A stretch of DNA of 21,673 bases from a virus: positions 1 to 21,673 of IMG/VR virus record IMGVR_UViG_3300023176_007343; one strand, given 5' to 3'. Shown here in pieces: positions 73 to 21,673 of this stretch; positions within the stretch are counted from its first letter, which is position 1, and each line of letters starts with the position of its first letter. The notes beneath the pieces were generated by a model. The model ran no database searches. It was not told the DNA's origin and saw only the letters and a list, made by a program, of their open reading frames with translations. Position numbers and translations under genes: made by a program.

Positions 73-1442
73 TAATATGTACCAAAGGGATTAGATTCTG
101 TAAAGTCTAGAATAAGATCTGCTTCTGTCTCAATCGTTTCATTTTGTTTATATTTATCAGTCGTAGTGTTAGCGGTTGATACATTTATTACATATGAAGC
201 ACTAGATGCTGCTCCAACAACCAATTCTCCAGGATAAAATGTCCCTGTTACAATTCCAACTCTCAGAATATTTGTATCAGTATCCCAATTTTTAACTCTT
301 GCAGATGAACCAGATATTGAACCAGTTACAATCTCATTAAATTGATATGTTCCAATTCCTGTAGTTGCAGCAGCTCCAATAGTGATGGTTGGCGCTACAG
401 TATATCCAACTCCAGAATTTACAATTCTAATTCCAGTTACTTCTCCATTACCATTAATAACTGACTTCGCTGTTGCCGTAGTTCCTCCCCCTACAGGTCC
501 TGAAATAGTTACCGTAGGTGCAGTTGTGTATCCATTACCAGATTGTGTTATTGAAATAGTTCCAATTCCACTAGTAGTAATACCACAAGTAGCAATAGCA
601 CCAAATCCTCCACCACCACTGATAGTAACTGTTGGATTTGTGGTATATCCTAAACCAGGATTAATCAAAAGTATTTCTTTTACAGAATTAACACCACCTT
701 TAAATGTTGTAATAGCAACTGCCTCTGCAGTCACTCCACCGACAGGAGCAGCAGATATCGTTACTGTAGGTGTGCTTGTATAACTGTAACCATCATTGTT
801 TAAGAATATTTCTTTAACTCCACCAATAACTTTAGTGGTTATTGCCGTTGCATCAGTTCCTGAAGATAAGAGATTAAGGTCTACGATATATCCAGTATTT
901 TCAAGAACAGTATCTATTTCTTCAATGGTTGTATCTAAAGTTTCGTCTTCATATTCGAAGAGTTCACACTTGAGTTCATAAACATAATTCTTACCTAACT
1001 GATAGAAAGGATTTTCATGTTCTACAAACTTTACTTCAAATAATCTTTGACCGAGAGGAAAATAAATTAAATCCCCTTCTCTTGGTCTAGTAGAAAGTTC
1101 ATACTCAGTATCACTTCCAGCATCCAAAAATGGAGAAATAAAATCTTCAAATCTTTCTTTTGAAATTGTAAGAGATAATTCATCTCTTATACTCATACCA
1201 AACTTTGTTAAAATATCTCCAGCACCACTATATCCATCATATGTGTTTACATATGCTTCAAGCAAAAAATTATCATCAAATTTTGATGACTGAACTTCTT
1301 CAATAATAGTTTGTCTTCTTACAAATTTTCTTGGTATATAAGTTACTTCAACACCATAAATCTTGAGTTGCTCATTAATCAACTCCTGTACCAATCTTTG
1401 CTCTCCAGCAGAGCCTTGTAAGAAAAAGGGATTAAGTGCCAT
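72..1442 (-). CDS. 14: gp14-like neck protein with a large repeat insertion
   Basis: 456 residues, against about 256 for T4 gp14. Residues 1-195 look like the conserved neck protein: the MALNPFFLQG start, QRLVQELINEQLKIYG at about 15-30, and YVYELKCELFEYEDE at about 153-167. The last ~25 residues, with the TESNPFGTY end, look like the usual C-terminus. Between about 200 and 425 lies extra sequence: four repeats carrying GYxYTxxPTVTIS (218-230), GLGYTTNPTVTI (263-274), GNGYTTAPTVTI (302-313) and GVGYTVAPTITI (344-355), then a segment at about 364-418 of the 'F-N-E-x-V-x-G, S-x-S-x-A' type seen in phage structural proteins. In T4, gp14 joins gp13 in the neck that closes the filled head for tail attachment. 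The start overlaps the gp13 stop by one base (TAATG). The gp14 call is firm from family resemblance and position. The role of the insertion is unknown; exposed decoration is an inference. Confidence 0.88.
   Translation of the reverse strand: MALNPFFLQGSAGEQRLVQELINEQLKIYGVEVTYIPRKFVRRQTIIEEVQSSKFDDNFLLEAYVNTYDGYSGAGDILTKFGMSIRDELSLTISKERFEDFISPFLDAGSDTEYELSTRPREGDLIYFPLGQRLFEVKFVEHENPFYQLGKNYVYELKCELFEYEDETLDTTIEEIDTVLENTGYIVDLNLLSSGTDATAITTKVIGGVKEIFLNNDGYSYTSTPTVTISAAPVGGVTAEAVAITTFKGGVNSVKEILLINPGLGYTTNPTVTISGGGGFGAIATCGITTSGIGTISITQSGNGYTTAPTVTISGPVGGGTTATAKSVINGNGEVTGIRIVNSGVGYTVAPTITIGAAATTGIGTYQFNEIVTGSISGSSARVKNWDTDTNILRVGIVTGTFYPGELVVGAASSASYVINVSTANTTTDKYKQNETIETEADLILDFTESNPFGTY
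168..845 (-). repeat. Insertion in gp14: four ~40-residue GxGYTxxPTVTI repeats plus a trailing module
   Basis: The repeats begin at gp14 residues near 218, 263, 302 and 344, a period of 39 to 45 residues. Each carries a Gly-rich turn, an aromatic Tyr-Thr, a Pro, and an alternating T-V-T-I strand, followed by a Gly/Ala-rich stretch and a strand of the 'V-x-x-I-x-I-x-N-x-G' kind. Residues 364-418 hold a different module. At DNA level the copies have diverged, so this is not a fresh duplication. The flanking sequence reads as ordinary gp14, so the block looks inserted rather than appended. Confidence 0.8.
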
Positions 1443-2299
1443 TATCCAATAAAGTCGTAAGGTGGAAGTTCATAATCCATAGCCATTCTGGATTTAATAT
1501 CTGCTAATTCTCTTTCAGCATCTTCATAAATTTCCCTACCATTCAATTCAATGCCGCCAGGAAGTTTAACTCCTCTAAATTTAATTAAGTTTTGACCCCA
1601 CTGCCTCTTAATTAAAGAAGTTAAATATTTCTTCAAGAAACTATCATTATATACATCTGTGAATGTATTTGGATCCAATATTCTGTAGCAGTCTAAAATG
1701 AGATAATTTCCAACATTCTGTGCCTGCCAGTCAATATCCAAATAGAGTCTATCTTGTCTCTTATTAAATCTAATCTGCTTATCAGTAGTAAGTAAGAAAT
1801 CGATATCTTCCAAATAACTCTTGACCATAGAATATTGAAGTAATTCTACAGAGTTAAAATAATATAGGTCATTCAAAAATAACTGATATTTGATACTAAA
1901 CATTCCACCAGATATTGCACTAGTATCAAATCTGAAAACCTTTTCAATACCAACTACAGAATCTGGAACTTGAATAAAATTCGAAGTTTCATAGTAATTT
2001 GAAGTAGTTGTTCCGTATCCTGGAATGGATGTAGAAGTAGCACTTGTTGTTACAATTCCTGCCGTATTTGTGCTTGAACTATTGCTAGTCGCTCTTCCCC
2101 TATCGATATCTGCCTGAGTAATTTCATACTTCAAATACATCCTTTCAACACCGTCGAAATGGCGCTCCTGAAAGTATTGAAGGGCATCATCAACCAAATC
2201 GTCTATTTGGTCATCATCGACATTTATCTCCAATACAGGGGCACCTAGACGCCTTAAACAGTAGTCTATCAGTCCCTGGCGTGTTGATGGCTTAGCCAT
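1442..2299 (-). CDS. 13: gp13 neck (head completion) protein
   Basis: 285 residues; T4 gp13 has 309. The N-terminal stretch TRQGLIDYCLRRLGAPV (about 6-22), followed by an acidic IDDLVDDALQYFQERHFDG segment (about 32-50), is the typical opening of gp13 in marine T4-like phages. Residues about 70-100 form a Ser/Thr-rich linker (alternating S/T, ending SIPGYGTTTS). The later part contains VGIEKVFRF and a long conserved-looking stretch with QLFLNDLYYFNS, RLYLDIDWQAQ and KYLTSLIKRQWGQNL. The C-terminus is YELPPYDFIG. With gp14 this protein makes the neck that seals the DNA-filled head and accepts the tail. The start at 2299 is supported by a GGAGG Shine-Dalgarno nine bases upstream and by TAATG coupling to the preceding fibre gene. 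The low-complexity linker may be specific to this lineage. Confidence 0.93.
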   Translation of the reverse strand: MAKPSTRQGLIDYCLRRLGAPVLEINVDDDQIDDLVDDALQYFQERHFDGVERMYLKYEITQADIDRGRATSNSSSTNTAGIVTTSATSTSIPGYGTTTSNYYETSNFIQVPDSVVGIEKVFRFDTSAISGGMFSIKYQLFLNDLYYFNSVELLQYSMVKSYLEDIDFLLTTDKQIRFNKRQDRLYLDIDWQAQNVGNYLILDCYRILDPNTFTDVYNDSFLKKYLTSLIKRQWGQNLIKFRGVKLPGGIELNGREIYEDAERELADIKSRMAMDYELPPYDFIG

Positions 2300-3339
2300 T
2301 AGAATTGTCCTCCATCAATTGTTGAAGTCCATACAGGAACTCCGCTTACTTCTTCTGTTGTTAATATGTAGTAGCTTTGTGATATTGCACTTTCAGTACT
2401 TGCCGCACCAATCAATTTTCCATTATTATTAAAATATGTGATACCATTTGGACCATCAAAATTTCCAACATCATAATATAATCCTTGAACAAAAGTTGCG
2501 ACTCCAGAAACACTAAGTTGATCATCAATTGTTACTGTACCACCAGCAGAATCAATCGTTAAGTTTCCAGATGAAGTATTAATCTCATTGGTACTTGTAA
2601 TTCCAATCTGGATATTATCTACAACTGCTCCAGTAGCAAAAGTTCCTACTCCAGAAAAATTTGCATGTCTCCATGCTTTTCCAGAAATACCGATATCATA
2701 AGAATCATTATCATTTGGTACGAGGTTTGAAATGAATTCACCAGAAACATTAATATCATCAGTATTTCCATCACCAAGATTAATCGTACCTCCTCTAAAT
2801 GTTACTACTCCAATAAATTCAGAATATCCGGCAACATAAAGACTTCCGCCAATACTTACATTCTTATTAACTCCAAGACCACCATCAATTTGAACTGCAC
2901 CAGTGTCTGGATTTGCTAGAGTATTATCTGTAGTATTTGTATAAGTTGTAATTCCAGAAAATATTGAATCTGAAAAACTATTTGACCAACTTAAATTTCC
3001 ATTACCATCAGTAATTAATGCTGCTGATGATACTCCATCAGTCGCTGGAAAATAATATGTTATTGCAGCACCAACCGATGCTGGTGCAGAAAGGGTGATT
3101 GAAGTTCCAGCAGATCCTACGGAATGTGCTGAAACAAGATTTACACCGCCGCCAGCACTAACAGTTTCCTTTTTCCAATATCTAGAACTTCCGAAAAATT
3201 GTTGATTTGCGGCAGTACCATCAACACCAATATAAAAATTATATTCATCAGTAACAAAACCAGGTTCACCTGCTTGGAAAGAAGCTATTCCTACATTAGA
3301 TTGCTGACCTCTTTTAAACTGTAGTACAGGGGTCGCCAT
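2299..3339 (-). CDS. Fibre-like virion protein in the fibritin (wac) position
   Basis: 346 residues. The N-terminus has QFKRG (7-11), GEPGFVTDE (24-32) and FYIGVDG (35-41). This is the 'RG ... GE-P-x-F-x-TD ... x-IG-DG' pattern found at the N-terminus of many phage tail fibres and of major tropism determinant-type proteins. Residues about 93-118 match the frequent fibre motif 'Y-x-FPATDG ... LITDGNGNLSW'. Later segments, SIGGSLYVAG, LVPNDNDSYDIGISGKAWRH (about 205-225) and LTIDSAGGTVTIDDQLSV, look like the repeating beta shaft of trimeric fibres. I see no S74 peptidase/chaperone domain. T4 places fibritin (whisker) directly before gene 13, so this is a candidate collar or whisker fibre by position, not by sequence similarity to wac. 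It has its own late promoter at 3374-3368, and only a weak GGG Shine-Dalgarno 14 bases upstream. It ends in a TAATG overlap with gp13. Confidence 0.72.
   Translation of the reverse strand: MATPVLQFKRGQQSNVGIASFQAGEPGFVTDEYNFYIGVDGTAANQQFFGSSRYWKKETVSAGGGVNLVSAHSVGSAGTSITLSAPASVGAAITYYFPATDGVSSAALITDGNGNLSWSNSFSDSIFSGITTYTNTTDNTLANPDTGAVQIDGGLGVNKNVSIGGSLYVAGYSEFIGVVTFRGGTINLGDGNTDDINVSGEFISNLVPNDNDSYDIGISGKAWRHANFSGVGTFATGAVVDNIQIGITSTNEINTSSGNLTIDSAGGTVTIDDQLSVSGVATFVQGLYYDVGNFDGPNGITYFNNNGKLIGAASTESAISQSYYILTTEEVSGVPVWTSTIDGGQF
2309..2313 (-). promoter_or_regulatory. Shine-Dalgarno GGAGG for gene 13
   Basis: A full GGAGG on the minus strand, nine bases before the gp13 ATG, lies inside the last codons of the fibre gene. 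It is the strongest ribosome binding site in the window and suggests gp13 is translated well independently of coupling. Confidence 0.8.
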
Positions 3340-3367
3340 TTTTTAGTTTTTTTCCCTTTTATAATGG

Positions 3368-3374: not shown

Positions 3375-3377
3375 TTG

Positions 3378-3623: not shown

Positions 3624-3961
3624 TATCGTGTTACTCCTTGACTTACTAATACCATTCCTTCAACAACTCTAGTAGTTGTATTTGCAGTATCTGTAATCAC
3701 AACATCATAAACATATCTACCAGGTTTTAAACTTGCAGTTTGAGATGTCGTCAATCCCAATTGAATTTGTCCGCCAGATTCATTGTAAATGCTAGTAGTA
3801 AAGGTAGTTACACCAGTACTCCCAGCATGTTTTCTCATTTGAGAAGAAATATTATATCCAGCAAGATTTAAAACAGAATTTGTCGCAGAACTTTCTAAGG
3901 TAAATATGCGACTAAAATCTGTTCCAGTATTAATAGTTAGATTACTTACGTAAACTGCCAT
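3623..3961 (-). CDS. Small beta-rich virion protein (112 aa)
   Basis: 112 residues, predicted mostly beta from alternating hydrophobics. Visible features are FSRIFTLES near residue 16, a SSQMRKHAGS segment near 40-49, GGQIQLGLTTSQTASLKPG (about 63-81), and RYVYDVVITD followed by RVVEGMVLVSQGVTR at the end. The pattern 'polar strand, S-x-x-RK, G-x-I-x-L-x-L-T-x-x-Q-T-x-x-L-x-x-G-x-Y-x-YD-x-x-x-D, R-x-x-EG-x-x-x-V-x-x-x-VTR' is that of small immunoglobulin-like phage baseplate or fibre adaptor domains (BppU N-terminal-like). I infer a baseplate or fibre-attachment role and cannot name a T4 equivalent. A late promoter-like CATAAATA sits 20 bases upstream, overlapping the stop of the preceding gene. 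The Shine-Dalgarno is weak. Confidence 0.78.
   Translation of the reverse strand: MAVYVSNLTINTGTDFSRIFTLESSATNSVLNLAGYNISSQMRKHAGSTGVTTFTTSIYNESGGQIQLGLTTSQTASLKPGRYVYDVVITDTANTTTRVVEGMVLVSQGVTR
3634..3639 (-). promoter_or_regulatory. Shine-Dalgarno AAGGAG for the 81-aa gene
   Basis: It reads AAGGAG on the minus strand, ten bases before the ATG at 3623, and lies inside the 3' end of the 112-residue gene. It supports the chosen start in addition to the TAATG overlap. Confidence 0.7.
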
Positions 3962-4348: not shown

Positions 4349-7300
4349 TTATGCTAAAGCGATGACTTTCAAATTCTTAAATATTGGTGGATATGCTTCA
4401 TTGGTACCACTAGCAACAATTTTAATTCTAAATCCATTAAATTTATCTAAGTCATCAGCAGTGAACTGATATTCATAGAATTCTCCGTCAACACTCGCTG
4501 GGAGGAATGCGTCCGCCTTTCCATTATTTTTTGTAACATCAACTACTAAATCACCAAATCCATCAGCATTAGTATCCTTCAGATTATCATATCCTGGGAA
4601 TAACTCATATGTCTCAATATTGTTGCTGGATTCAACTTTAAAGAGTTGGTAAAGGACTCTAAAGTCGGCGGAAGAATGTCTATAAGCATCAACAAGAACT
4701 TTGAGTGATGTTGCAGGTTGCTCAAGGTCAACTTTTTGAGTTACATAGAGATATGCGTGTGGATCTCCAGCAACAAGATTTACGCGAGGATCTAATACAT
4801 AATCTGCGATTGGTTTATTCAATCTATTTCTATGCAACTCAACAGTTGCACTAGAATAATCAATGAATGGTGAAAGATTCTTGTCTCCACTATTATCAAG
4901 TGTTACTGCATAAGTAAATGATCTGCTTTGAGGGAGAGTACTCAGAATTGTATCAGTGGTTTCATTTGGTCTAGATGCAATTGTCCTCACACTGGAAAGA
5001 GGTGTTAAAGCATTATTATCAATACTTTGATAACCCTGATCTGCAAACAGTGTTTCAGTTCCATCAGCACTTCTTCCAGAAACAGTTCTTATCTGAGAAT
5101 TTGCTGAAACCTTATCACTAATACCGTCAATAACAATATTTGTCTTAATTGCGTTGAATTGAAGGTTTCTAGTTGCTTTTACATTTTTACCACCAACAGC
5201 ATTTTCATCTGTGAAAGATCTCATACTGGTTCCAGAAGTAATAGCACCTAAAGTTCCACCTAAGAATGAAGTTGTAGCAGATCTGTTGATTTTCAGGAAA
5301 TATTCATCAATTCCAGTATCATTAGAAATAATGCCTGCAGCACCAGTATTTCCATTTCCAGAATGTGTAACTTCATTACCTTCATCACTGTTTATTCTCG
5401 TCAGAGAGATTCCATTCAACTCATACTTGTAAACCTTAGAGTTTGCAGCGTGTGATGTTGGATTAACTCCTCTAGTAACGGTAAGTTGTCCAGAACCAAT
5501 TGAAGTATATCTCATAATCTCATTATCAATCTTCAAATATCCGCTAGTAGCAGTACTATTTTCAAAAGTGGTAAAGATTGCAGTGTTTGCTACTGCAACA
5601 GTTGTATCTGTTGTGTTTATAGCAACATCAAGAGTCGTTGGGATACTATCTGGTTGAATTCCTGTGAGAGATACTACATGACCTAAACCATGCATACCGT
5701 GATTAATTTGTGCAACTCTAATTGTGTTACCATCAAATCTAGTATCAGTAGAATCTGTGCTACTTGTAATTGTAGTAGAAGCCAAACTTACTACAGTTGT
5801 AGGTGTATTGAAATAGCACAGAGGATCTGTAGTAGTAAAGTCCTCACCCTGAACATTCGTTAAGTATAAAGTGTCAATTCCACCGATTTCATCTACTGTA
5901 ATTTGAGCACCTTTTCCTTTTTGAACTTGTGATGTTGTAATTCCAAGAAGATCTCCAACAACATAACCAGAACCAGCCGTTGTGATTGTTACACCAGTAA
6001 CTATACCAACAGCACTAACATAAACAGTTGCCTGTGCACCAGTACCAGATGCTTGAATGGAGTACAAATCTACATTAGTAAATTCACCTGCAGAATAACC
6101 TATTCCAGTATTTGTTATGGTAATGAAATCATTGATTGTACCTGTATCAGTTATACCGCCACCAACATTTTCAATAATACCTGATGGGTTTGTTAATCCT
6201 GTTGAGACTGTTCCGTGACTAACTTTAGTACCAATAGTTAGATCACCATTGAGAACATCTGTAACACCAAAACCAACACTAATTTTTCTTGGAAGAGTTA
6301 AAATTGAATTCTCTTCGAGTTGATATTCTGGACTGGTATTACTTAAGTTGTTGTAGAAGTATACGGTTCCTGGTGTAGTTACGAATTCAGCTTTGTTTAT
6401 TCTGAACTTCATATCTTCATTTTGGTTTTCTGTCCAAAGAGAACCATTTTGAGATCTGAAGAGAGCACCACCAGTATATTGCTTAGCACTAACGATACTT
6501 TCTGATTCTGGTAAAGAATTTGGAGATACATCAGCATTGCCTGTTTGTGAAATCCAAACTTCGTAGTCGTTAGATGATGGTGAAAGTAAAACAATAGCGT
6601 ATTCAGTACCTGCTTTGAGTGGTACAGGTGTTTTGAATTTAAAATTAGTAACTTCTGAGGCATCTGGAGAAACAGATACTTCACTTGCCTGAAGAATTAC
6701 CTGAGAATCTGATATAACCAGATTTTGTGATGGTTTTGCATCATCAGTTACTTCAACAAGTTGTAAAGTAACAGTTGGTTCTCCATCACTTTCAATTATG
6801 TTATCCGTTATACCAGTACTAATTCCAGTTTGTGTTCCTGGTTTTGTTTTAAACCAAACATCAACAGATGTACAAGTAATATTATCTTCACCTGTGAAGA
6901 AAGTTTGGGCAAGTGGATCAAGATGCTTCTTCATCTTGACTGTAGTTTGCTTAACTAACTCAATAACACCAGTTGATGTGTATAGAGCTTCAGCATTACC
7001 TATAGATGGTTTTCCAGGACCATCAATAGCATTTGTTTTGCTTGTCGTTAGTTTGAATGTTTTGGTACCAGTTGTGAATAATTTATCTTTATTGGTTACT
7101 ACCTCTTGAAGATTGTTTTTCTTATATTTCTTCTTGGTATTGCCTAATAAAGTTATATCTGGTACTGTTACTGTATTTGTTTCAGAATCTTTTGTGAATC
7201 CTTTTTTAATTTGCTTTTTACTTAACTTTTTCTTCTTGGTGAAGGTATAAACATACTTTGGTTTTCTGAGGAAGAATGAACCAATAATACTTCCAGAAAT

Positions 7301-10300
7301 ATCTGAAACTAATTTGATATCGTTAACAATAGCAGATGCTGATGTATCTTGACCAATCATTTCAATTGTTGTGAATCCAGATTTAATATATCCACCAAAT
7401 TCATCAATAGCAGATGCTGCTAAAATGTCGATGTCAATATTAAGAATTTCTGAATTTGCTGAATAATTTTCTGGAATATTTGTGGACTTTGTGGTATCAT
7501 ATGGATTAATAGAATATGTTTTGTATGTGTTTACATCAATTACATCCTGACTGTTTGTAAGAGAACTCCCACTAACAGTTGTTGTTGTTTCTAATGGACC
7601 ACTCTTGTGATTTGGTGGAGCAATTCTACCTCTGAAAATTTCTTCACCATCATAATTAGTTGCTTTTACAGTAGCTCCTGGAACAAAGGTTCCAGAAGTC
7701 ATTGTGATTTGTAAAAGTTTTGGAATAATATCAATTTGATTACTTCCATCAAAGAATGCATAGTGTTGTGTAAATGGTTTCAGGTTGTTTGCTTCAAACT
7801 TAACATTCCTAGATCTCATATAAACGGCATCAACCGTATCTAAGACCTTTGTCTTAGTCCAAGTTTTTGTCTGAGCACCAGATTGATTTACTGTCTTAGT
7901 TTGAGTTACTTTTACTTCCGTAAAGTTATCAACACTAGGAGTAAGAATTATAGTTCCATTATAATTTAAAATATTAAATGGATTTATATTTTCAGTTGTG
8001 GTAGCAAGTAGATTTTTTATCTCAGTTTCTACTTCTGTATAATTTAAAAGTATAGAATTACCTGTTTTTATAATATTTTTATCTGGGAATACTGATGGTG
8101 GTAAGTTATCAACACTCGTGTCTAATGATGCATCAATCGTTGCAATTTTTGGTGCAAAGGATGTTATTTCTGTAAATGCTTCCAGTTGCTCATTTTGAAC
8201 ATCAATCTGACATTTTATCTTCGACTCTTGCAAATCAATTTTGCTTCCATCATTGAAAGCATCTACAAAGAATCCGCTCTTGAATTTATCAAATCCATTA
8301 GCATCTTTTACTTGAAGTGTTTTTGTATCAACTTCAAGAAGAGATAAAGTTGTAAGATTTTCTAAAGTAGAAACTCTTTTATCAATATCTCCAATATCTC
8401 TCATTGTATACCTTCTATTATCTTTGAAGGTGATACTTACATCGTTAATATCATACAAATATGCAGGCAACTCTATAGTTGCGAGAAGCATTAAATCTTC
8501 TTTGTTTACAATTTCTGGTTCTACAGGATTTAAAGAAGAAACCCCCTTGATAACACTGAATATCCCATCTTTTTGGAGAACGATTCTATCTATTCTTGGT
8601 AAGTAATATTCATAACCAAGAATAGAATCTTCTTTAGGAGTGACTACAAGAGTTGGATTTGGACCAGTTGCAAAGTTTCTACTTACAGGTGCAAATGGAG
8701 AAGCATTTGTTACAGTAAATTCTGATACTCTTGGTCTAAAGTCGAGAGTATCAGATGCTCTTAATTCCCCATTAATATCGGGAATGTCTTCCTTAAATCT
8801 TTCAGCATCATAAGAATTTACTGTGTAAACATCGCCAGTATCCGATGCAAGAACATCGTAATGGTCAAATACAATTTTGAGTCTATGGCTAGGAATGTAA
8901 GAATCATCTTTTCTTACAATTCTGGAGTAATCATAATACTCACTTCTTCCACCTTTATCTAAGGTATATTTTTGAGTTATATCCTGATAATTGCCCTTTG
9001 TGAAAGATACTACAATAGAATCCACTTCAGATTCATCAAATGTAACTAATTCACCAACATCAAATGATTTGTTATTCAGAAGAACGACTTGTGCGTTTGA
9101 TGCAGAGTCTATTTGAACAACTTGAGCAATTGCTCCGCTAGTTTGTCCTTTTACTTTTTCTCCAACAATTGCATTAGTATTTAAAGCAGCCGCAGCAGAA
9201 ACTTGTATAACATCTAGTGTTGGATTTGCAGCACCTAAAGATTCATAAACTGCTAATATTTTAGCAACATCTGGAAGATTTAATGAAATTTCCTTATCTT
9301 GAACTCTTAAACCATAGAAATTATTTTGAGTTAGACCATTAACATTAATAGAAGTCTTGGAAAGAATTACATCTCTTTGTGCACTTCTTGTATAAATCTT
9401 CTTCTTACTAGTAATTCCTTGCTTCAACAGCGAAGCATTGACTGTTGCCTGACCACTTACGAATGATAATCCATCAAAATTTGCTCCAGACCCACCTCCA
9501 GTTAAGGTTAAATCTGGATCTGTAGAAACAACACCATCTGCTTCATTGAAGAACGAATACTTTTCTGCACTATATGACTTATAAAGAGCACTTGATATTC
9601 CTGTTGGTGCAGTTAAAGATCCATCTCCAACAGCATCTACAGTTATGTTGTTTAATTGAACTGTAATACTTAATTGAGAGTCTTTAAGATCTACTGCTGA
9701 AATATTTTCACTTGGAAGTTCTGCGTATAATCCACCACCACTCTTAATTTCGCCAACAGCAAGAGAAATGGGTCCAACAAATTCAGTGGCTGGAAGAGCA
9801 CCATCACACACTTCAGCGGGTTGATTAGTGATAGCTTCAACAGTTAAAGTTGTAGAACCTGCTCCAACTGCAGTTACTCTGTTAAATGTTGGTACAACTT
9901 CATCTGATTTATTGTATTTAATAATAGATCCAACTTTTGCACCTAAGAATCCATCTTGAAGCGAAGATGTTACATTACCGCCAGTTGAAATAGTCGCATC
10001 AAAATTTCCAAGTTGTTTGAACTTCTGATCTATTAAAATAGTGTCTGCAGTAAAATCGAAGGCGGCATCGCCTCCCATTGGATCTGCCTGATAAATCGCT
10101 TTTACATCTTGCTGACCATGTTTTGTTACGGCAGTAATAGTTCTTGAATTTTCTTCAACTTCATTGATAATGATCTGTTCACCGACAACAAAACTTCCAG
10201 ATACCTGAGTTAAAGTTAATGCTGTTCCATTAGTAACATCATTTAGCAAATATCCAGAGGCATTGCTAGTTTTACCTCTAATATAAGAAGTATCATTGAG

Positions 10301-11731: not shown

Positions 11732-13285
11732 TTAGAATTCCAGGATAATTTTAACGTCTTCTTTTTGTCTAGGGCTTCTTGTAATTGCAGGACGATTATC
11801 AATATAAATTATTTCTCCTGACTTTTTATTTATCTCATAATTGGCGATTCCATTTGTGAAGTTAGCGTCAAGAGATACTATTTGATTTGATACTGTAGTT
11901 GTAACTCCACTAAATCCCGTTTCGATAGCTCCACTAAAACTAGTAGATTCTATTGTTCCTCCACCAGACTCAAAAGCGTAAGATCTTGCATCTGTTGAAA
12001 CAGTGCTATAATCACTTTGATCTCTATTTGTTTGATTGAAGTGTAAAGATCTATCTTGGAAATACTTCAACACTCTGGTTGTTTCATCATAAGAAGCAAC
12101 AATACCTCTTGCTGTACCTTCAGTGACTGTTTGTGTGATTCTATCTCCAACAGCAGGTTCTCCAGAAAATGCTGCTGTTAATTTTATAGCACCAAGTGCC
12201 GAGAACTGATTGCTAGTAATTACATTATTCGATCCAAAAGCAGTTGGATTTTTTACAATACCAATTTCGGAAAATACTGTGTCTGATGGAAAATCTTTTA
12301 CAGAATCATCAAATCTAGCATAAACTAAAACTCTATCAGCACCTAACTCTTTGTATAAGTCAAATCCATGACCTCTTGATGGAGGAATAATTGGAATGAG
12401 GTGTGCGGGAGTTGTAATTGTAGATGGTTGATATGCGCTTAAATCAACCATTCCGTAAGTATATCCACTACCACCTGCCGAAATCACAGCACTTGTTACT
12501 TGTCCACCAGTAATAGTAACAACAACCTGACCACCAGTTCCATCTCCAAGTATTGGAAGTTCTACTTGGTTTGCGGTTTTATAACTTGCACCAGGATTTT
12601 CAATATAGACTTTTTTTATTTGATTTTGATTTTCATCAGAATCTCCATTTTCCCTAACTGCTGTTATTTGGGCATTGGTTGATGTACTCCAGTTGTTTGG
12701 TAATGAAATATATTCTGTTGAATCAAATTTTACAATATCACTTGGAGTTACTGTAAACAGATACTTCCACAAATATCCATCACCACTATTCCCTGCAGCC
12801 GCTGGTTCTAAATCAGTAAATGTTGGCTCGTCTAATGAAGCATTTCCATTTGTATTGATTCCAGAAGAACCATTATCAATACAAATGTATACCTTATACT
12901 CGCTATTCATTACATAATAATTTGAATCATATAAGCGAGCAGATTGTGTTATTGGAGATGGATTTGTAAGACTGTAATCATGTCTGTACATTTCATACTT
13001 GGTTCCCCTTGCCCAATCTATTCTTCTTACAACTCTTCTAACATTATCAGTCGTTGCTCTCTTCCCAAATATCATATTATCTCCAACAAAATTGGAGTAA
13101 TCAATACTATCATCTGGATTTGGTGTATCAGTATTCCAAGTAGCACTTCTTTCTGCAGAACCAGCAGTCGCAGTTGGATTTGATAAACCTACAAAAACAT
13201 AATATGAGTTATCAGTGTCCGAAATTGAGTCAACAAAGTTACTCGCATTCAATATTCTAAATTGATCCGTAACTATCGCAGGCAT
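11732..13285 (-). CDS. 8: gp8 baseplate wedge protein
   Basis: 517 residues, against 334 for T4 gp8. The gp8-like features are MPAIVTDQFRILNASNF at the start, YYVFVGL (about 28-34), RVVRRIDWARGTKYEMYRHD (about 84-103), NYYVMNSEYKVYICIDNG (about 122-139), GDGYLWKYLFTVTPSDI (168-184), PPSRGHGFDLYKELGA (301-316), and a C-terminus ITRSPRQKEDVKIILEF. Two wedge-internal GxxY repeats (VYIENPGASYKTA and ISAGGSGYTYG, about 226-278) may account for part of the extra length. In T4, gp8 dimers join gp7, gp10, gp6 and gp53 to build each of six baseplate wedges. It has a perfect TATAAATA late promoter 19 bases upstream but no recognisable Shine-Dalgarno, so the mRNA leader would be very short. The identification is firm on the conserved motifs and the order gp8 then gp13/14. 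Confidence 0.9.
   Translation of the reverse strand: MPAIVTDQFRILNASNFVDSISDTDNSYYVFVGLSNPTATAGSAERSATWNTDTPNPDDSIDYSNFVGDNMIFGKRATTDNVRRVVRRIDWARGTKYEMYRHDYSLTNPSPITQSARLYDSNYYVMNSEYKVYICIDNGSSGINTNGNASLDEPTFTDLEPAAAGNSGDGYLWKYLFTVTPSDIVKFDSTEYISLPNNWSTSTNAQITAVRENGDSDENQNQIKKVYIENPGASYKTANQVELPILGDGTGGQVVVTITGGQVTSAVISAGGSGYTYGMVDLSAYQPSTITTPAHLIPIIPPSRGHGFDLYKELGADRVLVYARFDDSVKDFPSDTVFSEIGIVKNPTAFGSNNVITSNQFSALGAIKLTAAFSGEPAVGDRITQTVTEGTARGIVASYDETTRVLKYFQDRSLHFNQTNRDQSDYSTVSTDARSYAFESGGGTIESTSFSGAIETGFSGVTTTVSNQIVSLDANFTNGIANYEINKKSGEIIYIDNRPAITRSPRQKEDVKIILEF
12445..12620 (-). repeat. GxxYK / GxGYT repeat pair inside gp8
   Basis: gp8 residues about 223-283 contain 'KVYIENPGASYKTANQVELP' and then 'VTSAVISAGGSGYTYGMVDL', separated by a Gly/Val-rich 'GGQVVVTITGG' stretch. 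This is the repeat family found in gp14. It sits between the conserved YLWKY block and the PPSRGHG block, so it appears to be an internal elaboration. Confidence 0.65.
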
Positions 13286-13321: not shown

Positions 13322-16300
13322 TCAAAGTATAGTGTTTATACCAATCAGAGCACCAGTATCTCTCAATCCAAATCTTTCACTTCTTCTTTGAATGAATGGG
13401 AAAGTTGATAATCCAGAATCAATAGTTAATCCAGTAACACCAATAGATATTGGATTATTAGATCTCGTAAAACCAGAAATTTTTCCAACAGAGAAGTTTC
13501 CGACAGGACTTGATGTTGCAATTCCACTTGTGTTAATTCCAGTTGTGTTAATACCAGAATGTACATTACATGTAATTAATCCAACATTTACACCTGGAGT
13601 AGATACTGCAGAAATGATGTATATATTATCCACATAAGTGGTTCCAATACCAACCGTTGCAGCATCAGAATCATTAACAGAAGTGACTCCAGAACCAACA
13701 AGTGTATTGTAGATATAAATTGGATCACCAACTTCAAGACCTTGTGCTACATTGAGAGCATCACCAACATTATCAAGTCTAGCCAAATCAAAAGTAATAG
13801 CAAGAGGATGACCTCCAGTTCCAACAGAAGTTGAAATTCCAGTCAAAACACCGACAAAGTTTCTAATTTGATTTGCAGAACCAAAGTTGGTTACAAGTTC
13901 AGAAGAAACATTTGTTGTTGGAGCAAGGACATTTGGTATAATTGAAGTAGAGTATCCAAGTCCTCCTGTTCCTATTGCTACAGAAGTAACAGTTCCAGAA
14001 GCACTAACAGTTGCTGTTGCTGTTGCTGCAATTCCTGTATTTGTATTTGGAGGTGGTGCAATAGAAAGGGTTATAGTTGAACTTGGAGTATATCCAGATC
14101 CACCAGTGGTAATAGCAATATTTGAAATTGTTCCTCCAACAGATACTGTTGCACTAAATGCAGCAGCAACTGGATCTGTAGTACTTCCAATAATCAACGC
14201 ATTCAAATCTGTATTTTGAATGGTTGCTAACGATTCTGTTTCTTCATATTCAAATAACAATCCATTATCAACAAATATTTCAGTATCAGTCGTACTAAAA
14301 TCACCAATTATTTTAGCACTTGGATAAATTTGTGGTTCAAGTGTATCTCTTGTCTTGTATATGTCTTGATTATTAATTCTCTTATCAACCTTTTGCTTAA
14401 TCCAATCAAATGGTTTGTAATTAACCTCATCAATTCCAAGACCAGTATAGATATCAGTCTCAACACTATCTGAAGTTGGAATACCAACAACAGTTCTGTT
14501 TGATTCTTGATCTACAGTAGTCAAAATTAAATTATTTCTCTTGAGTCTAATTTCATCACCAATCTTAATAGTTTCTCTAATTTCAGTAAAGACGCTATCA
14601 GTTCCTCTTGTTCCTCTGTAGAAGAAGATTGAAATATCATCTTCAGATTTTGGTGCAGTTGTGAAAGTGAAAGAAGATCCGCCATCAAAAGTGTAGTTAA
14701 CGCCTGGTTCTTGAATCACACCGTTAATGAATATTAAAAGGATGGAATCTAAATCAATATTTAAAGAATCTGCATCATTTGGATCAATTTCAATACTCAA
14801 CAATTCACTGTTATAATAAAGTGGGAATCTTGTTCTAATACCGTTTTGAAGTGCACTAATAGGATCGATGTAATCAAGTTCTCCAAACTGCCATGCTGAG
14901 AAGGAATCGTTAAATGTTTCCAATACTGTTAACTCAAAGTCCGCAAGTGGGGATGCAAGATTTGCATCAGTTACAAGACCAACTGGTCTGAATACATCAC
15001 CTTTCTTAAATCCATATCCAGGTCTAGCAATACTGAATGATTTGACCTCAAACAAAGTAGAACCAATACCGACAGTATTTGCAGCACCAACTTCCAGATT
15101 GAGAAGTAAGTTTGAACCAGTGTCGGTTGTTGCTCCAATTCCAAGACGAGATACACCTTCAACTCCAAGGTTTGAATATGAAGGTTCTGATACAAATATT
15201 TGTGGATTGTTGTATCCAGTACCACCAGCACCAACAGTAAATGTTAAAGTTCCACCAGCACCAACAGTTGCTGTTATAGTAGCTGCGTCACCGCCAGCAT
15301 CTTGTGTTGGGTCTGATACCGCAACACCAACGGCTCCAAAGTATCCAGAACCAACAATATCAGTAGTTCCTAATCCAACAGATGTGATTGCTCCAGTACC
15401 GTCAATAACCGCAGTTACAGAAACACCTACAAGAGGAGCGAATCCAAGACCTGGTGTAGATGCGAGGGAAACAATAACCCCACCTCTTGGGAGTTGATTT
15501 TGATTTACATCATATTCGGAGATTAATAATCCACCAGCAGTTGTAATTCCACTGAATACCACGCTAGAAATACCAGCATTTTCGGAGAATTGATAATTGT
15601 TTCCGGTATTATTATCAGTTGTTGGTGTTTGGAAAATATCATTGATGAACAATACTCCACTACCAGTCTCAATTCCAGTGGTATTTGCACCACCAACAGT
15701 AAGAGTGTATGTTTGACCAATACCAGTGAACGAATCGCTTATGTTGTCGTAGATTTGATTACTTGAATAATCTTTTCTTAAATATACTCTTCCATTGAAT
15801 GTTGATTCTGGAGATTCCAATTCTGAAGAATTCAATATATCTAAAGGATCTCCTAATGGTGCTTCAGTAAAGTGAATCTTGTTTTTAACAATATTAAATG
15901 AACCAATATAAACTCTAGCAGTCGTAAGACCTGCGTGAGTAGTTGCTGAAGATCCAACAAATCCTCTTTCAACTTCAACAAGTGCAGTTGTTCCAATTCC
16001 AGTGATTGGACCCGAAGAAGTAGTTCCAAATCCAACTGAAGTTACATTGAGATATTCATCTTCAATTCTAAGGATATTTCCTGGAGTTATGCTAGAAATT
16101 CCAGAGAGAGCAAAGATAGTCTCTGTAGAATTAATTCCAAATGTGAGAGAGTGATTGATTGCTGTATAAGCAATAGGACTCTGGACAACACCATCAATGG
16201 AGATAATAGATTTCTCCATCTTCTTGACCATTTCTAATTCGTGAGCATTGCCCTTTCCACTCACATCCGTAAATGTAACTCCAATACCAGATGTAGTTGC

Positions 16301-19300
16301 AAAAGCTGCTACTGTTGCAATCTTAAACTGGTCATTATTAATTTTAATTGCATAAACTGTTGATGGAAGAATGGTCGTTGTACCGATACCAACGCCACCA
16401 CTACTAGTTTGTCCAATACTTACAGCAGTAGCAGTATTACCAAATGTATCACCTGGTCTATAAATTAACTCTTCACCAGTGCTGAAGAAGTGGTCTTTAA
16501 TAGTGAATACTCCAGTAACGGGATTCAATACACTTGCATTAGATGGATTGAATGTCTTCATAAAGATTGGAGTTTCATCATGTAACATCTCAAATTCTGT
16601 TACATTAACTCTATTTCCATTTGGTGCATTATATTGAGCGACCAATACATCTTCAGTGATTGGTCCATATGAGAGAGTATCTGGATCATTTACCAAATCA
16701 ATTTCAGATTTAATAATTTCACTATAAGATTGAATTAAAACATCTGTGGTAATTCCAGCATCTGGATAGAACCTTAAGTCTAAATTAGTTCCAACGATTG
16801 CTCCAGCAAATGTTCCAATTCCTGTTGCACTATTAGCAGACAGATAAGAATACTGAGAAGTATATACATCTGTTCCGTCATTAACAACCAGTAATTGATG
16901 CAGTGCGGAGGTTGAACCGTAACTAACTCTAGCAAGTGTTTTAATTGTGGTAAAGTTGGTCGTAGAACCCAAACTTACTACTGTAGAAATTCCAGTCGCT
17001 TCTACAAAATTACTTTGCAGTTGTACAGTATCTGCCTGATCGGCAGTTTGACCAGTAGTAGTAAATGTATATGTGCTGATTCCAGCGGCAGTAGTTCCAA
17101 ATCCGACGATTCTAGACCTCACATTTACTGCATTTGACTCTGTGCTGTTTGTAAACTTAAGACTTAAGGTATTAGACGATATATCGGAAGCAAATGTTCC
17201 TATAAAGTTTGAAGACAACTCTACAGATTGATTATTATCAAAGAAGTAGTCGCTGATGTTAGTGTCTACTCCATCATGGTCAATATACATTTCAACATAA
17301 GTTCTTTCCTTAGAAGTTGGGTTAATAACTTCAGAAATTACAAATATTGCGTTATTAGTATTTGTTGAGACTCCAATAATCGTTGCAGTTGATCCAATAC
17401 CAACTGATGTATTGATTCTAGAAGTAAGATTAATAAGACCAAGAGATTGAGTTCCAATACCTGCTAATTCACTATTGAAATTATTCTTTAAGACCTTAAT
17501 ATCATAGTCTTTTGTATATTGCTCTGTTGGGGTGAATCTTAACGAAAGATTTCCAGAATCAGAAATATTACCAGAGACATCACCCAATGAAGAATCTGTA
17601 TTATATAAAGATGCTTTTTCTACAGTTACAATATCATCAGAAACTGATGGTAAAGTTACAATCTCTGTAGATTGCTTTTCATTATTATCTGGGTCTGTAA
17701 TTTGAACTAAGAATCTACTATATCCATCATCGATATTGTAATTATCAATATCAACATAGAAATTGCTTATGATATTACCACTTGAGAACTGGCTGCTAAT
17801 GTTGTCTATAGAAAGAACTCTATTTGAAATACACTTAATATAATCCGTTAATTTTCTATTCTGAACTTTAACAAATTTTGATTTATTGTTCTCAACATCA
17901 ATATCAAGACCATAATCATAATTATTAATCGTATCAACTCTATTATCACTGATTAAATCAATGAGTGCAAATGTTGTTGATTGTTGAATTGATGTTGTAG
18001 CAAATCCAACGGTACTAGTAATTCCAACATCAGCAAAATTCTTAAGACCTGTAGTATGAAGAAGTCTATTTACTGGATTTACTAGCTGCTCATAGGTAAT
18101 TGGACTCTTGACCGTGTAGGAGAGATTTTGATAGTAGTCATTATCAGGAATAACCTGATAATCTAAATTCAACTTTCCAATATCATCAGACCAACCGACA
18201 TCTTTTTTCAATGAATAGTCAATTCTGAAGAAAGATTTTGTCTCTTCTATAGTTTTAATAGTTGCTCTAGTTCCAGTATCATCTCCAACAATAACATCAT
18301 TTTCCTTCAATTCATAAGATCCATAAACTTTAATCTGGTCATTTAGAGACTCTGTGATTACCAGATTTCTTGGTACTATTGTTGTTCCTTCTACAGTAGA
18401 AAGTTTTTCACCGTCATTGAAATCTTTGTTAGTTTGTGAAACTTTAAATACTGGATAGTCACTCTCTTTAATAAGAATTGCGTAACCAGATTGATTAGTC
18501 TTAGCAATACCTGGATTGGTAGTAACTCCAGAGATATTAATTTGCAGTGTAGCTGGATTATTTGCAGGTCCTGCAGCGTATTGAGTTACTGTGAATAAAG
18601 TGTAATTATGATCTTCAGAATTAAATCCTTCTCCAGTAGTGCTATAGAGTCCTACACCTTCAACATAAATCTTTTCCCCAACACTAAAGAGAGATGAAGA
18701 AAGACCAGCAATTGGAGTTGCTAATGTAAATGTTACAATTCCTGTTGCTTGGGTATATGCAACTTGATTTACATTAATACCGTTACTATTATCAACTGCG
18801 TAAACCTTACTCAAGTTTTCAGACAATCCTGATGGAGCAGCAACTACATCAACAGACTGAATAGATGTTCCCTGAAGATTTGCTTCCAAAACTCCATTAT
18901 CATATTTTTCTCCAGTTTCTGGATTGACCAATACTAAGTTTGGTGGAGTTGTATAGTTAGATCCACCAGATACAACTTCAACGCTTGAAACTGTACTTCT
19001 ATTAATAATAGTGATATTGGGGGAAATGAATACCTCTGGACTTAATGTCTTATCAGCAGAATAATCAAATCCTGGATTGTTAATTTTAACCGACTTAATT
19101 TTTCCAATATTTGTCGATGTTGGAATAATATCAGCACTTACGCCTTCAGTTGAAGTTATTGATACAAATTCTGGAAGTTTCTTGTAGTTTTGTCCACCAT
19201 AATTAATCTTCATTGTCTTCACACCACCCTTAGCACTTGCGGAGGTAGTTGAATATTCGAGGGTAGAAGTTGTATTCTGGTTGTGTGTTAATACTTCTGG

Positions 19301-21673
19301 TAGTGCCTTAAGATTTGCTTGGAAAGTAGTAACAGCAAGTCCACTGGAAGAAACTTTAAAGTTTCCATTATAAAGACTATCAACAAATACTATCTCCGAT
19401 CCATTCCCAACACCTTTATCGGAAGTGCTAATAAATCCAGAATTTTCTATATTATAATAGAGTTGTAATGGAAGACCAGCGTCATAATTCAAAGTTACTG
19501 TTGCACTTGCAGAAACACCAATAGTCCCAACACCTATAACACCGAATGTAGTTCCAGATCCAACAGAAATAAATTCGTTATTAAAATCTTTATCTGTAAA
19601 GATTTTGAAATTATATCCACTAAGAGAAGAATCTGATACATCAAATACAAGATTATTATTCTTTATTGGTTTCAGTTGTGGATTAATCAATGATAATTCT
19701 TGACTCGCTCCTCCAGTAGAAGCAAAAGATACTACCGTTGGTGGTTCTAATAAGGCATCGTAATATGTCTGAGTAAGATTGATTTGATTATCATCTATTC
19801 TATAGACATAATATGATCCAGTATCAAGACCAGTGATATTATTATCTGTATAATCATAGAAGACTTTCTCTCCAGTCTTAAGACCATGATTAGTCAAAGT
19901 TAATACATTAGTTGTGCTGTTAACTCCGACTGATGTAAATCCAATAGGATTAATCAATAGTTTGTCTTTATTACTATTATACTTAACTCTTACTGCTGTT
20001 GAAGTTCCAATACCAACTGACTGATTTGGTTTTAGATCTAAAGTAATTGAATCACCAGCGGTTAATTCATGACTTGTTGTTACACCAATATTTGCGGTAA
20101 CTCTCTCAACTCTTGCTGTTACTTGAGTTAAGTTAGTTTCTAAAGAATACTTGTAGTCATTGTCGTCGGCATTTGCAGTAAATGCAGTAAAGAATAAACC
20201 ATTGGTATTAGTTGTTAATCCAACTTGTGTGGTCAGACCAATAAAATCTTTAGACTTATTAATTACAAACAGTGTTTCGGTATCACCACTTTGTGGTATA
20301 GTAAATGCTGCTGCACCAGAAGTAGTTGCAACAGATATTGCATTTGCACCACTAGGGCGTGTTAATATTACTTCCTGATTCGTCTTAAATGGATGATTGG
20401 GGATATAAATTGATTGAGTTGGAACTGAAATAAATTGTGTGAATTGACCTATTTCGTAATCATTGGAAACATCTATACCTGCAGTAGTTCCAATACCGAT
20501 TGATTGTTGTGGATTGAAGAATTTTATACTATCGAGAGGTGGTTCGAAGTAATCGACAGAAAGTGGTATTGTAAATGTATCTGGAACAGTAAATACTTCT
20601 GCACCATCAGTATGGGCAGTTCCTGTAACTCCTCTTTCAATTCTAATTACTTTGTTCTCTGGGAAGACATTAAGAGCACGAACTCTTTCAGTTCCAATTC
20701 CTAATGTAGACCCAACAGAAACAAAACTTGGATTTGTGGTTACATAGATGTCTGTTACTACACCAGCAGTTGCATTTATTGCTAGTTGGTCTAACAGATA
20801 TGTGCTTTCTGATGTAACGCCAATTACATGAGAATTTGTTAGTCCTCCAATAAAGCTTGATACACCAGAGATTACTACAGTATCCCCATCACTAAATGAG
20901 TGATTTGAAGTTGTTTGTACTAACAAATTAGAGGAATTTTTCCAAACAACAGAAGAATTTGTGAATGTGTCTACTGTTGTGGTAATGTAATTAATATTCT
21001 TACCTTTAATGGAACCAACTTCTGCTGCTAATCCACTTCCATCTGTTCCAGTGCTGTCAAAAACAGCAACATCTCCAACTTTATAAAGATCTCCAGGCTC
21101 GTTAATTACAAACCCCTGAACATAACCTTTGGATATAGACTCAATAGTAGCACTTTGTGGAATTACCTCATAAGGCTCCAATAAGAAGTCATTGTCCGCA
21201 CCCTCATCAAAGACATTATATGGGAAAGTATTTCTTACAAGAGTTGTGCTATTAAAATCAAAACCTTGATCTAAGTTTTGCTCAAGTGGAATAGATTTGT
21301 AAGAATTTCCAATGAAGTATGGGAATTCTGATTTTGTGGAGTTTGTGTCTATGGATGCAAAGTATGCATAGACTCCATTTGGGAATTCTGGAGTTCTTCC
21401 AAATCTTCCATTATATTCATCAAGATTTCCAGAGTTATCAAAAGTATAGTCTTCTACAAAGAAACCAGCGGAGAATCCAGAAGGTCTATCTGTTACATTT
21501 GATGTGTTTAAAGTGTAACCAGACTGAAGTGGAATAACAGTTGATCCTGTATCATCAGAATCTGTATATGAATATGGTCCATAGATTGGATTTCCATCAT
21601 ATGCCCATCCAATGATTGGTGAGTGTGTAATATTATCAGTATCTAAGGTTTCAAAAACACCGTCTTGCAATTG
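13322..21673 (-). CDS. Giant virion protein in the gene 7 position, 3' part (5' end outside the window)
   Basis: At least 2,783 residues. The frame is open through base 21673, so the TTG at 21670 is not the true start. I number residues from that codon. Residues 16-121 form a YHYH-like domain: HSPIIGWAYDGNPIYGPY (16-33), LDEYNGRF (83-90), TPEFPNGVYAYF (93-104), FPYFIG (116-121). The rest is long, beta-rich and repetitive: GxxY repeats near 15180, 18940, 19050 and 19190, two RG-x-x-x-T-x-H modules, three FxNGVxQxP modules, and many GIGTT motifs. It directly precedes gp8, as gene 7 does in T4 (gp7 about 1,032 residues), so it probably fills the gp7-like wedge role, but I see no direct gp7 motif. 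It could instead be a fused wedge and adhesion protein. No membrane segment or signal peptide is visible. Confidence 0.75.
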   Translation of the reverse strand, partial: QLQDGVFETLDTDNITHSPIIGWAYDGNPIYGPYSYTDSDDTGSTVIPLQSGYTLNTSNVTDRPSGFSAGFFVEDYTFDNSGNLDEYNGRFGRTPEFPNGVYAYFASIDTNSTKSEFPYFIGNSYKSIPLEQNLDQGFDFNSTTLVRNTFPYNVFDEGADNDFLLEPYEVIPQSATIESISKGYVQGFVINEPGDLYKVGDVAVFDSTGTDGSGLAAEVGSIKGKNINYITTTVDTFTNSSVVWKNSSNLLVQTTSNHSFSDGDTVVISGVSSFIGGLTNSHVIGVTSESTYLLDQLAINATAGVVTDIYVTTNPSFVSVGSTLGIGTERVRALNVFPENKVIRIERGVTGTAHTDGAEVFTVPDTFTIPLSVDYFEPPLDSIKFFNPQQSIGIGTTAGIDVSNDYEIGQFTQFISVPTQSIYIPNHPFKTNQEVILTRPSGANAISVATTSGAAAFTIPQSGDTETLFVINKSKDFIGLTTQVGLTTNTNGLFFTAFTANADDNDYKYSLETNLTQVTARVERVTANIGVTTSHELTAGDSITLDLKPNQSVGIGTSTAVRVKYNSNKDKLLINPIGFTSVGVNSTTNVLTLTNHGLKTGEKVFYDYTDNNITGLDTGSYYVYRIDDNQINLTQTYYDALLEPPTVVSFASTGGASQELSLINPQLKPIKNNNLVFDVSDSSLSGYNFKIFTDKDFNNEFISVGSGTTFGVIGVGTIGVSASATVTLNYDAGLPLQLYYNIENSGFISTSDKGVGNGSEIVFVDSLYNGNFKVSSSGLAVTTFQANLKALPEVLTHNQNTTSTLEYSTTSASAKGGVKTMKINYGGQNYKKLPEFVSITSTEGVSADIIPTSTNIGKIKSVKINNPGFDYSADKTLSPEVFISPNITIINRSTVSSVEVVSGGSNYTTPPNLVLVNPETGEKYDNGVLEANLQGTSIQSVDVVAAPSGLSENLSKVYAVDNSNGINVNQVAYTQATGIVTFTLATPIAGLSSSLFSVGEKIYVEGVGLYSTTGEGFNSEDHNYTLFTVTQYAAGPANNPATLQINISGVTTNPGIAKTNQSGYAILIKESDYPVFKVSQTNKDFNDGEKLSTVEGTTIVPRNLVITESLNDQIKVYGSYELKENDVIVGDDTGTRATIKTIEETKSFFRIDYSLKKDVGWSDDIGKLNLDYQVIPDNDYYQNLSYTVKSPITYEQLVNPVNRLLHTTGLKNFADVGITSTVGFATTSIQQSTTFALIDLISDNRVDTINNYDYGLDIDVENNKSKFVKVQNRKLTDYIKCISNRVLSIDNISSQFSSGNIISNFYVDIDNYNIDDGYSRFLVQITDPDNNEKQSTEIVTLPSVSDDIVTVEKASLYNTDSSLGDVSGNISDSGNLSLRFTPTEQYTKDYDIKVLKNNFNSELAGIGTQSLGLINLTSRINTSVGIGSTATIIGVSTNTNNAIFVISEVINPTSKERTYVEMYIDHDGVDTNISDYFFDNNQSVELSSNFIGTFASDISSNTLSLKFTNSTESNAVNVRSRIVGFGTTAAGISTYTFTTTGQTADQADTVQLQSNFVEATGISTVVSLGSTTNFTTIKTLARVSYGSTSALHQLLVVNDGTDVYTSQYSYLSANSATGIGTFAGAIVGTNLDLRFYPDAGITTDVLIQSYSEIIKSEIDLVNDPDTLSYGPITEDVLVAQYNAPNGNRVNVTEFEMLHDETPIFMKTFNPSNASVLNPVTGVFTIKDHFFSTGEELIYRPGDTFGNTATAVSIGQTSSGGVGIGTTTILPSTVYAIKINNDQFKIATVAAFATTSGIGVTFTDVSGKGNAHELEMVKKMEKSIISIDGVVQSPIAYTAINHSLTFGINSTETIFALSGISSITPGNILRIEDEYLNVTSVGFGTTSSGPITGIGTTALVEVERGFVGSSATTHAGLTTARVYIGSFNIVKNKIHFTEAPLGDPLDILNSSELESPESTFNGRVYLRKDYSSNQIYDNISDSFTGIGQTYTLTVGGANTTGIETGSGVLFINDIFQTPTTDNNTGNNYQFSENAGISSVVFSGITTAGGLLISEYDVNQNQLPRGGVIVSLASTPGLGFAPLVGVSVTAVIDGTGAITSVGLGTTDIVGSGYFGAVGVAVSDPTQDAGGDAATITATVGAGGTLTFTVGAGGTGYNNPQIFVSEPSYSNLGVEGVSRLGIGATTDTGSNLLLNLEVGAANTVGIGSTLFEVKSFSIARPGYGFKKGDVFRPVGLVTDANLASPLADFELTVLETFNDSFSAWQFGELDYIDPISALQNGIRTRFPLYYNSELLSIEIDPNDADSLNIDLDSILLIFINGVIQEPGVNYTFDGGSSFTFTTAPKSEDDISIFFYRGTRGTDSVFTEIRETIKIGDEIRLKRNNLILTTVDQESNRTVVGIPTSDSVETDIYTGLGIDEVNYKPFDWIKQKVDKRINNQDIYKTRDTLEPQIYPSAKIIGDFSTTDTEIFVDNGLLFEYEETESLATIQNTDLNALIIGSTTDPVAAAFSATVSVGGTISNIAITTGGSGYTPSSTITLSIAPPPNTNTGIAATATATVSASGTVTSVAIGTGGLGYSTSIIPNVLAPTTNVSSELVTNFGSANQIRNFVGVLTGISTSVGTGGHPLAITFDLARLDNVGDALNVAQGLEVGDPIYIYNTLVGSGVTSVNDSDAATVGIGTTYVDNIYIISAVSTPGVNVGLITCNVHSGINTTGINTSGIATSSPVGNFSVGKISGFTRSNNPISIGVTGLTIDSGLSTFPFIQRRSERFGLRDTGALIGINTIL
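13880..14130 (-). repeat. GGSGYTPSS and GGLGYSTS repeats near the C-terminus of the giant protein
   Basis: Two repeats of the shared family, 'NIAITTGGSGYTPSSTITLS' and 'TSVAIGTGGLGYSTSIIPNV', are linked by an Ala/Thr-rich strand (ATATATVSASGT). The spacing of about 45 residues equals that in gp14. Confidence 0.65.
14705..14740 (-). repeat. FINGVIQEPG module in the giant protein
   Basis: 'LIFINGVIQEPGVNYTFDGG' followed by 'SFTFTTAPKSEDDISIFFYRG' is the frequent phage fibre and tail module 'F-x-NG-x-x-Q-x-PG-x-x-Y ... F-T-x-AP-x-x-x-D-x-I-x-I'. Related copies, in less regular form, occur near 15640 (FINDIFQTP) and 16190 (IDGVVQSP) in the same gene. Confidence 0.65.
15170..15470 (-). repeat. 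PGLGF / GSGYF / GGTGYNNP repeats in the giant protein
   Basis: Three consecutive repeats carry 'ASTPGLGFAPLVGVSV', 'DIVGSGYFGAVGVAV' and 'VGAGGTGYNNPQIFVS', each followed by a Gly/Ala-rich strand. They are the same module family as the gp14 insertion. Confidence 0.6.
15911..15990 (-). repeat. ERGFVGSSATTHAG module in the giant protein
   Basis: The segment 'VEVERGFVGSSATTHAGL' is preceded by 'ILRIEDEYLNVTSVG' and followed by 'TTARVYIG'. It parallels the copies at 20591-20650 and in the 2,459-residue protein. Confidence 0.6.
18915..19210 (-). repeat. Three GGxxY repeats (GGQNY, PGFDY, GGSNY) in the giant protein
   Basis: The segments 'MKINYGGQNYKKLPEFVSIT', 'VKINNPGFDYSADKTLSPEV' and 'VEVVSGGSNYTTPPNLVLVN' follow at intervals of about 40-45 residues. 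They share the strand, G-G/P-G, Y, Pro, strand layout. Confidence 0.65.
20591..20650 (-). repeat. ERGVTGTAHTDGAEVF module in the giant protein
   Basis: The segment 'VIRIERGVTGTAHTDGAEVF' is the cleanest copy of the V-x-x-RG-x-x-GT-x-H-x-x-G-A-x-V module and is preceded by 'GTERVRALNVFPEN'. Confidence 0.62.
21308..21625 (-). other. YHYH-like domain in the giant protein
   Basis: The order 'G-WA-YDGNPIYGP', 'LDEYNGRF', 'TPE-FPNGVYAYF' matches the YHYH protein family (G-x-x-x-DG-x-PIYGP ... LDE-x-NGRF ... TPEYP-x-GTYHYH). The signature His residues are absent: YAYF stands where YHYH is expected. The fold is probably kept while a metal or catalytic function, if any, is lost. This is recognition by motif, not by search. 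Confidence 0.72.

Follow-up and report, generated by a model that had tools for sequence, protein, structure and literature searches.

A single family of beta-repeats is common to four neighboring virion proteins, gp14, gp8, a gp10-like protein, and the gp7-position protein, which are encoded in a 21,673-nt stretch of viral DNA (IMG/VR record IMGVR_UViG_3300023176_007343) referred to here as the window. The first-pass annotation had described a GxGYTxxP module in these genes, and a profile built from gp14 sequences alone retrieved it from the others above reversed and shuffled controls. The repeat is probably an ancient beta accretion module that acts as a rigid spacer or outer decoration of the neck and baseplate.

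The main genes of the window lie on the minus strand and comprise those for the gp7-position protein, gp8, a 2,459-residue DUF4815 protein, gp13, and gp14, together with small genes. By gp14 identity, the nearest isolates are the cyanophages S-SRM01 (61%), P-SSM2 (56%), and S-SKS1 (54%). The neck (head closure) protein gp14 (positions 75 to 1442) matched PF11649 (2.4e-32; 112.8 bits) and phrog_460 (1.4e-138), and the baseplate wedge protein gp8 (11735 to 13285) matched PF09215 (3e-14; 53.2 bits) and phrog_438 (2e-159); with a curated cutoff of 25 bits, both are T4-type proteins. The DUF4815 protein (4352 to 11728; PF16075, 8.7e-55) occupies the gp10 position, is annotated as VrlC, and is the gp10-like protein of this analysis. 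The gp7-position baseplate protein (13325 to 21673) matched phrog_2885 with an E value of 0, carries a YHYH domain (PF14240, 2e-25), and is truncated by the window edge after at least 2,783 residues. As had been proposed, the cores of the four host proteins are mutually unrelated, belonging to four different Pfam families (T4_neck-protein, Phage-Gp8, DUF4815, and YHYH).

The evidence that the repeats form one family comes from profile searches. A profile made from the four gp14 copies of the window was too narrow and gave no significant match in other genes; the copies in the other genes of the window were retrieved with a training set from 88 genomes, which consisted of 349 repeat copies from 88 gp14 proteins and of gp14 sequences exclusively. 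At a threshold of at least 4 bits, this profile gave 43 matches outside gp14 in the window and seven isolates, compared to 0 in reversed and 0.26 in block-shuffled sequences. At 8 bits or more, 249 non-gp14 matches were found among 1,098 open reading frames (ORFs) from 168 loci, compared to 0 in reversed sequences. Because the controls were near zero, Gly/Thr-rich composition alone is excluded as an explanation. An independent check was provided by PHROG: the gp14 profile phrog_460 matched residues 208 to 418 of the window gp8 (6e-5) and residues 2494 to 2594 of gp7 (7e-5). In addition, a planctomycete copy from outside the training set matched the PHROGs of gp14 (3.6e-14), gp8 (6.5e-7), and gp7 (9.7e-12), which are among the 20 PHROG families, mostly of virion proteins, that it matched in all.

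Iteration of the profile over all genes yielded the consensus sIssititNgGsGYtstPtvtIsgpggtGatAtAvA. Across 163 copies from the different genes, G11 was present in 100% and Y14 in 97%; in some copies, GxGYTxxP is replaced by GxGYxxGD. It is extremely improbable that such repeats arose by convergence, as Gly/Thr-rich beta structures without common ancestry. The repeats are indeed short and of a low-complexity-like character, and the naive four-copy profile failed, but the ordered motif with its nearly invariant Gly and Tyr, the almost complete lack of matches in the reversed and block-shuffled controls, and the independent PHROG cross-matches all argue for homology.

In the window, four copies were located in gp14, two in gp8, two in the gp10-like protein, and about 10 in gp7, all on the minus strand. 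The four gp14 copies lie at 714 to 821 (copy 1, residues 208 to 243; 43.6 bits with the broad profile), 579 to 686 (copy 2, residues 253 to 288; 45.2 bits), 468 to 569 (copy 3, residues 292 to 325; 36.4 bits), and 354 to 440 (copy 4, residues 335 to 363; 24.0 bits). In gp8, repeat 1 (12506 to 12625, residues 221 to 260; 14.2 bits) and repeat 2 (12386 to 12502, residues 262 to 300; 6.5 bits) have residues that are invariant in 46 gp8 proteins: G232 and Y235 in the former and G271, G272, and Y275 in the latter. The two gp10-like repeats lie at 6026 to 6124 (residues 1869 to 1901; 5.7 bits) and, for the repeat of the GxGYxxGD subtype, at 5876 to 6001 (residues 1910 to 1951; 6.5 bits). These numbers agree with the counts given at first for gp14, gp8, and the 2,459-residue protein.

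The gp7 copies were placed by mapping the copies of 88 gp7 proteins onto the window. Copies lie at 14012 to 14131 (residues 2515 to 2554; 17.4 bits; nearly all orthologs), 13859 to 14014 (75/83 orthologs), 18911 to 18994 (residues 894 to 921; 21.3 bits; 48/54 orthologs), 15140 to 15265 (53/88), 15263 to 15421 (25/78), and 19118 to 19234 (11/52), and there is one at 14945 to 15079 (12/89) that the first-pass annotation had not listed. A further copy lies at 19016 to 19099 (residues 859 to 886; 12.7 bits). The annotation had counted about eight gp7 copies in four blocks (13880 to 14130, 15170 to 15470, 18915 to 19210, and 21075 to 21105); all four blocks were supported, but the total is about 10, and two copies are weak, one at the last block (21023 to 21154; recognized in 3/50 orthologs) and one at 15389 to 15496 (2/73 orthologs).

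An AlphaFold2 (AF2) model of gp14 gave each repeat as a long strand, a short strand, and a long strand; in copy 1 the strands span residues 208 to 219, 226 to 229, and 240 to 248 (pLDDT of ∼90). Local structure alone was used from this model, in which pLDDT is ∼90 over most of residues 190 to 360 and good to residue 422 and the core is poor (∼30 to 45). The same long-short-long order was seen in the locally confident part of the gp8 model, which is poor overall (mean pLDDT of 44.7). A Foldseek search of the PDB with the whole gp14 model, including its poor core, gave no meaningful match (best E value of 0.024; TM score of ∼0.1), and sequence and profile searches of the PDB gave no solved structure for the repeat (profile E values of 0.15 or more). 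Viral predicted structures in BFVD do match; most are phage virion proteins, and Sylvanvirus entries are also present. The module, of ∼36 to 45 residues, would run from a long strand with GxGY at its end through a Pro turn to a short strand and then, past a turn rich in Gly, to a Gly/Ala strand. Single copies as well as tandem arrays are found, in regions of tail and neck proteins beyond the conserved cores.

Alignment with T4 proteins showed where the repeats lie. The window gp14 aligns with T4 gp14 to approximately residue 177, and the array and a second module (described below) lie beyond. In T4, the gp14 core ends at residue 177, and the rest of the protein (residues 178 to 256) is a C-terminal arm to which the virion's sheath terminator, gp15, is bound (PMC12270204); the array (residues 185 to 371) follows the conserved stopper core at the position of this arm. 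Residues 2 to 196 and 485 to 517 of the window gp8 align to residues 9 to 211 and 302 to 334 of T4 gp8, with the repeats in between. The cores of T4 gp14 and gp8 are homologous to those of the window proteins, whereas the T4 proteins lack the repeats and T4 gp14 bears the short gp15-binding arm instead; a search of the T4 genome gave 0 repeat matches.

Conservation was then compared between the faces of the repeat, with facing assigned from strand alternation and not from coordinates. Inward positions of the gp14 repeats were conserved at 0.60 to 0.87 and outward positions at 0.27 to 0.46. The first-pass annotation had suggested one surface chemistry or a common partner over baseplate and neck, and these values do not show one. 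A related possibility is that the repeats are a common interface element, with those of gp7, gp8, and the gp10-like protein packing together and the gp14 array gripping gp15. The gp15-binding role of the T4 arm that the array replaces and the strong conservation of gp14 copies 1 and 2 and of both gp8 copies are in line with such structural glue, which we nevertheless consider quite unlikely given the variability of the outward gp14 positions. The gp8 repeats were conserved at 0.73 to 0.77, compared to 0.80 for the gp8 core, and this near-core level hints that they are more than a passive spacer in gp8. We infer that the module is most likely a self-folding, rigid spacer or outer decoration, exposed at the surface, that enlarges the neck and baseplate.

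A second shared module, module B (GssSGatArVvswd...FivGEtv), is common to gp14, gp8, and the DUF4815 protein and is weakly present in gp7. A module B profile gave 442 non-gp14 matches, compared to 1 in reversed sequences. In gp14 it follows the repeats (177 to 329, minus strand; residues 372 to 422; GxxSGAxAxV...FxxGE; 63.0 bits) and is modeled as beta strands. The gp8 copy lies at 12047 to 12118 (minus strand; residues 390 to 413; 15.3 bits), and further profile matches in the window are at 10127 to 10282, 9005 to 9154, and 7664 to 7732.

The distribution of the repeat over adjacent genes had been taken to indicate a module that spreads between neighboring structural genes, with repeats expected to cluster across genes within one phage. 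No such clustering was found: copies in different genes shared an identity of 0.304 when they came from one phage and 0.306 when they came from different phages. Permutation of the gp7 sets among 11 phages gave P values of 0.84 for the mean and 0.63 for the best match, with a permutation standard deviation of 0.004, at which recent exchange is well resolved and exchange older than these genera is invisible. In a tree of the repeats, the phage label within genes required 106 changes (101 ± 2.4 when shuffled) and was unclustered, while the gene label (47 changes versus 70.7 ± 3.2) and the gp14 copy index (8 versus 20.6 ± 1.6) were clustered. Both tests, by permutation and by tree, rejected recent exchange within a phage.

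The copies instead occupy fixed orthologous sites across cyanophages. In 33 of 36 cases, the nearest match of a gp14 copy in another phage was the copy of the same index, and both gp10-like repeats were found at the same site in 73/73 measured orthologs, with 87 to 105 residues between the flanks. The gp14 array usually has 4 copies and ranges from 2 to 8; expanded arrays were seen in S-CAM9 (8 copies in 657 residues) and S-SSM7 (6 copies in 762 residues). This variation in length, and the presence of one family in four neighboring genes, could be read as signs that recombination or gene conversion still carries the module from one structural gene to its neighbor in the same phage. We regard that as very unlikely in view of the lack of within-phage clustering, the fixed sites, and copies in distant genes. 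Whole-genome searching of P-SSM2 located the repeat in tail fiber and gp5-type (hub) lysozyme genes ∼86 to 112 kb from gp14, and in S-SRM01 it is likewise present in tail fiber and hub lysozyme genes distant from gp14. These copies show that the module is not confined to adjacent genes, and the idea of spreading between neighbors is corrected accordingly. Under the accretion model, duplication would have carried copies from gene to gene before the divergence of the sampled cyanophages, and inheritance since then would have been vertical and in place, with occasional array expansion.

The repeat was also found more widely. ACG-2014b has it in a 6,422-residue protein. Three proteins of Xanthomonas phage X1 also carry it: one of the wedge, one of the sheath, and one of 216 residues. 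In the X1 record (OQ427096), the 216-residue protein stands alone (152684 to 153334), and the tail sheath protein lies at 43139 to 45115. Among bacteria, a giant protein of Singulisphaera carries the repeat, and 5/149 Planctomycetota genomes contain it in ORFs of 985 to 6,533 residues; because the bacterial genomes were scanned with one peptide pattern, the bacterial distribution is undersampled. Through these giant ORFs, modules of phage virions and of bacterial exoproteins are linked in an unusual way. A tblastn search of plasmids with the repeat and a BLAST search of phages with the planctomycete copy both gave nothing, for which the BLAST low-complexity filter may be responsible.

In having small tandem beta modules in several virion and bacterial surface proteins, the family resembles phage Ig-like and BACON domains. 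In crAss-like phages, tandem BACON arrays occur in tail proteins and are proposed to bind cell surfaces (PMC6949934), and array positions in BACON cluster 1 form stable orthologous clades (PMC6949934), as the repeat positions do. The likeness raises the question of whether the module is adhesive, with Thr/Ser-rich outer faces that weakly bind host envelope polysaccharide and copies in neck, baseplate, and fibers that together give avidity. Binding of this sort has been proposed for Ig-like and BACON domains, and the repeat is present in tail fibers and the baseplate of many phages and in giant bacterial proteins. Adhesion is nonetheless unlikely, since no outward residue motif is conserved and gp14 also carries the repeat, although the neck is remote from the site of host contact. 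The repeat further differs from Ig-like and BACON domains in its three strands per ∼40 residues and its invariant Gly/Tyr core, which do not form an Ig sandwich; in having no match to Pfam models, those for Ig-like and BACON domains included; and in its presence in a neck stopper, a baseplate wedge, and a sheath protein.

Neither Pfam nor NCBIfam has a family entry for the repeat, and in Pfam nothing beyond chance was found even at E values up to 10. In PHROG, the module is embedded in longer profiles (phrog_460, phrog_708, phrog_701, phrog_2885, phrog_1922, phrog_5342, phrog_19630, phrog_438, and others), with no separate module entry in any library checked. A text search with the motif string returned no relevant paper, and word searches of two cyanophage genome papers did not reveal the repeat. 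Because there is no meaningful Pfam or NCBIfam match, the repeat is filed here as a separate, uncatalogued member of the general Ig-like/BACON kind. It is doubtful that tailed-phage virions in general are built with this uncatalogued fold in one assembly or binding role throughout the particle. Such a block would span neck, wedge, hub lysozyme, sheath, and fibers and would also belong to giant exoproteins of bacteria and perhaps to a giant virus (Sylvanvirus).

Marine cyanophages have very large virion proteins that lack annotation, and the module explains a portion of these; PHROG families that include it number at least 20. With a published profile, annotation would improve, and structural studies of neck and baseplate in abundant ocean phages would have domain borders to go by. 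In S-SKS1, the annotation divides the gp7 region (17897 to 23286) into two wedge genes and leaves long stretches nearby unassigned; the region is possibly split or frameshifted. In the window itself, a 112-residue protein (3626 to 3961) matched phrog_3304 (“L-shaped tail fiber protein assembly”), with a weak match to LtfC. The gp8 of IMGVR_UViG_3300023180_000498 is 100% identical to that of the window, indicating a near-identical relative in the collection.
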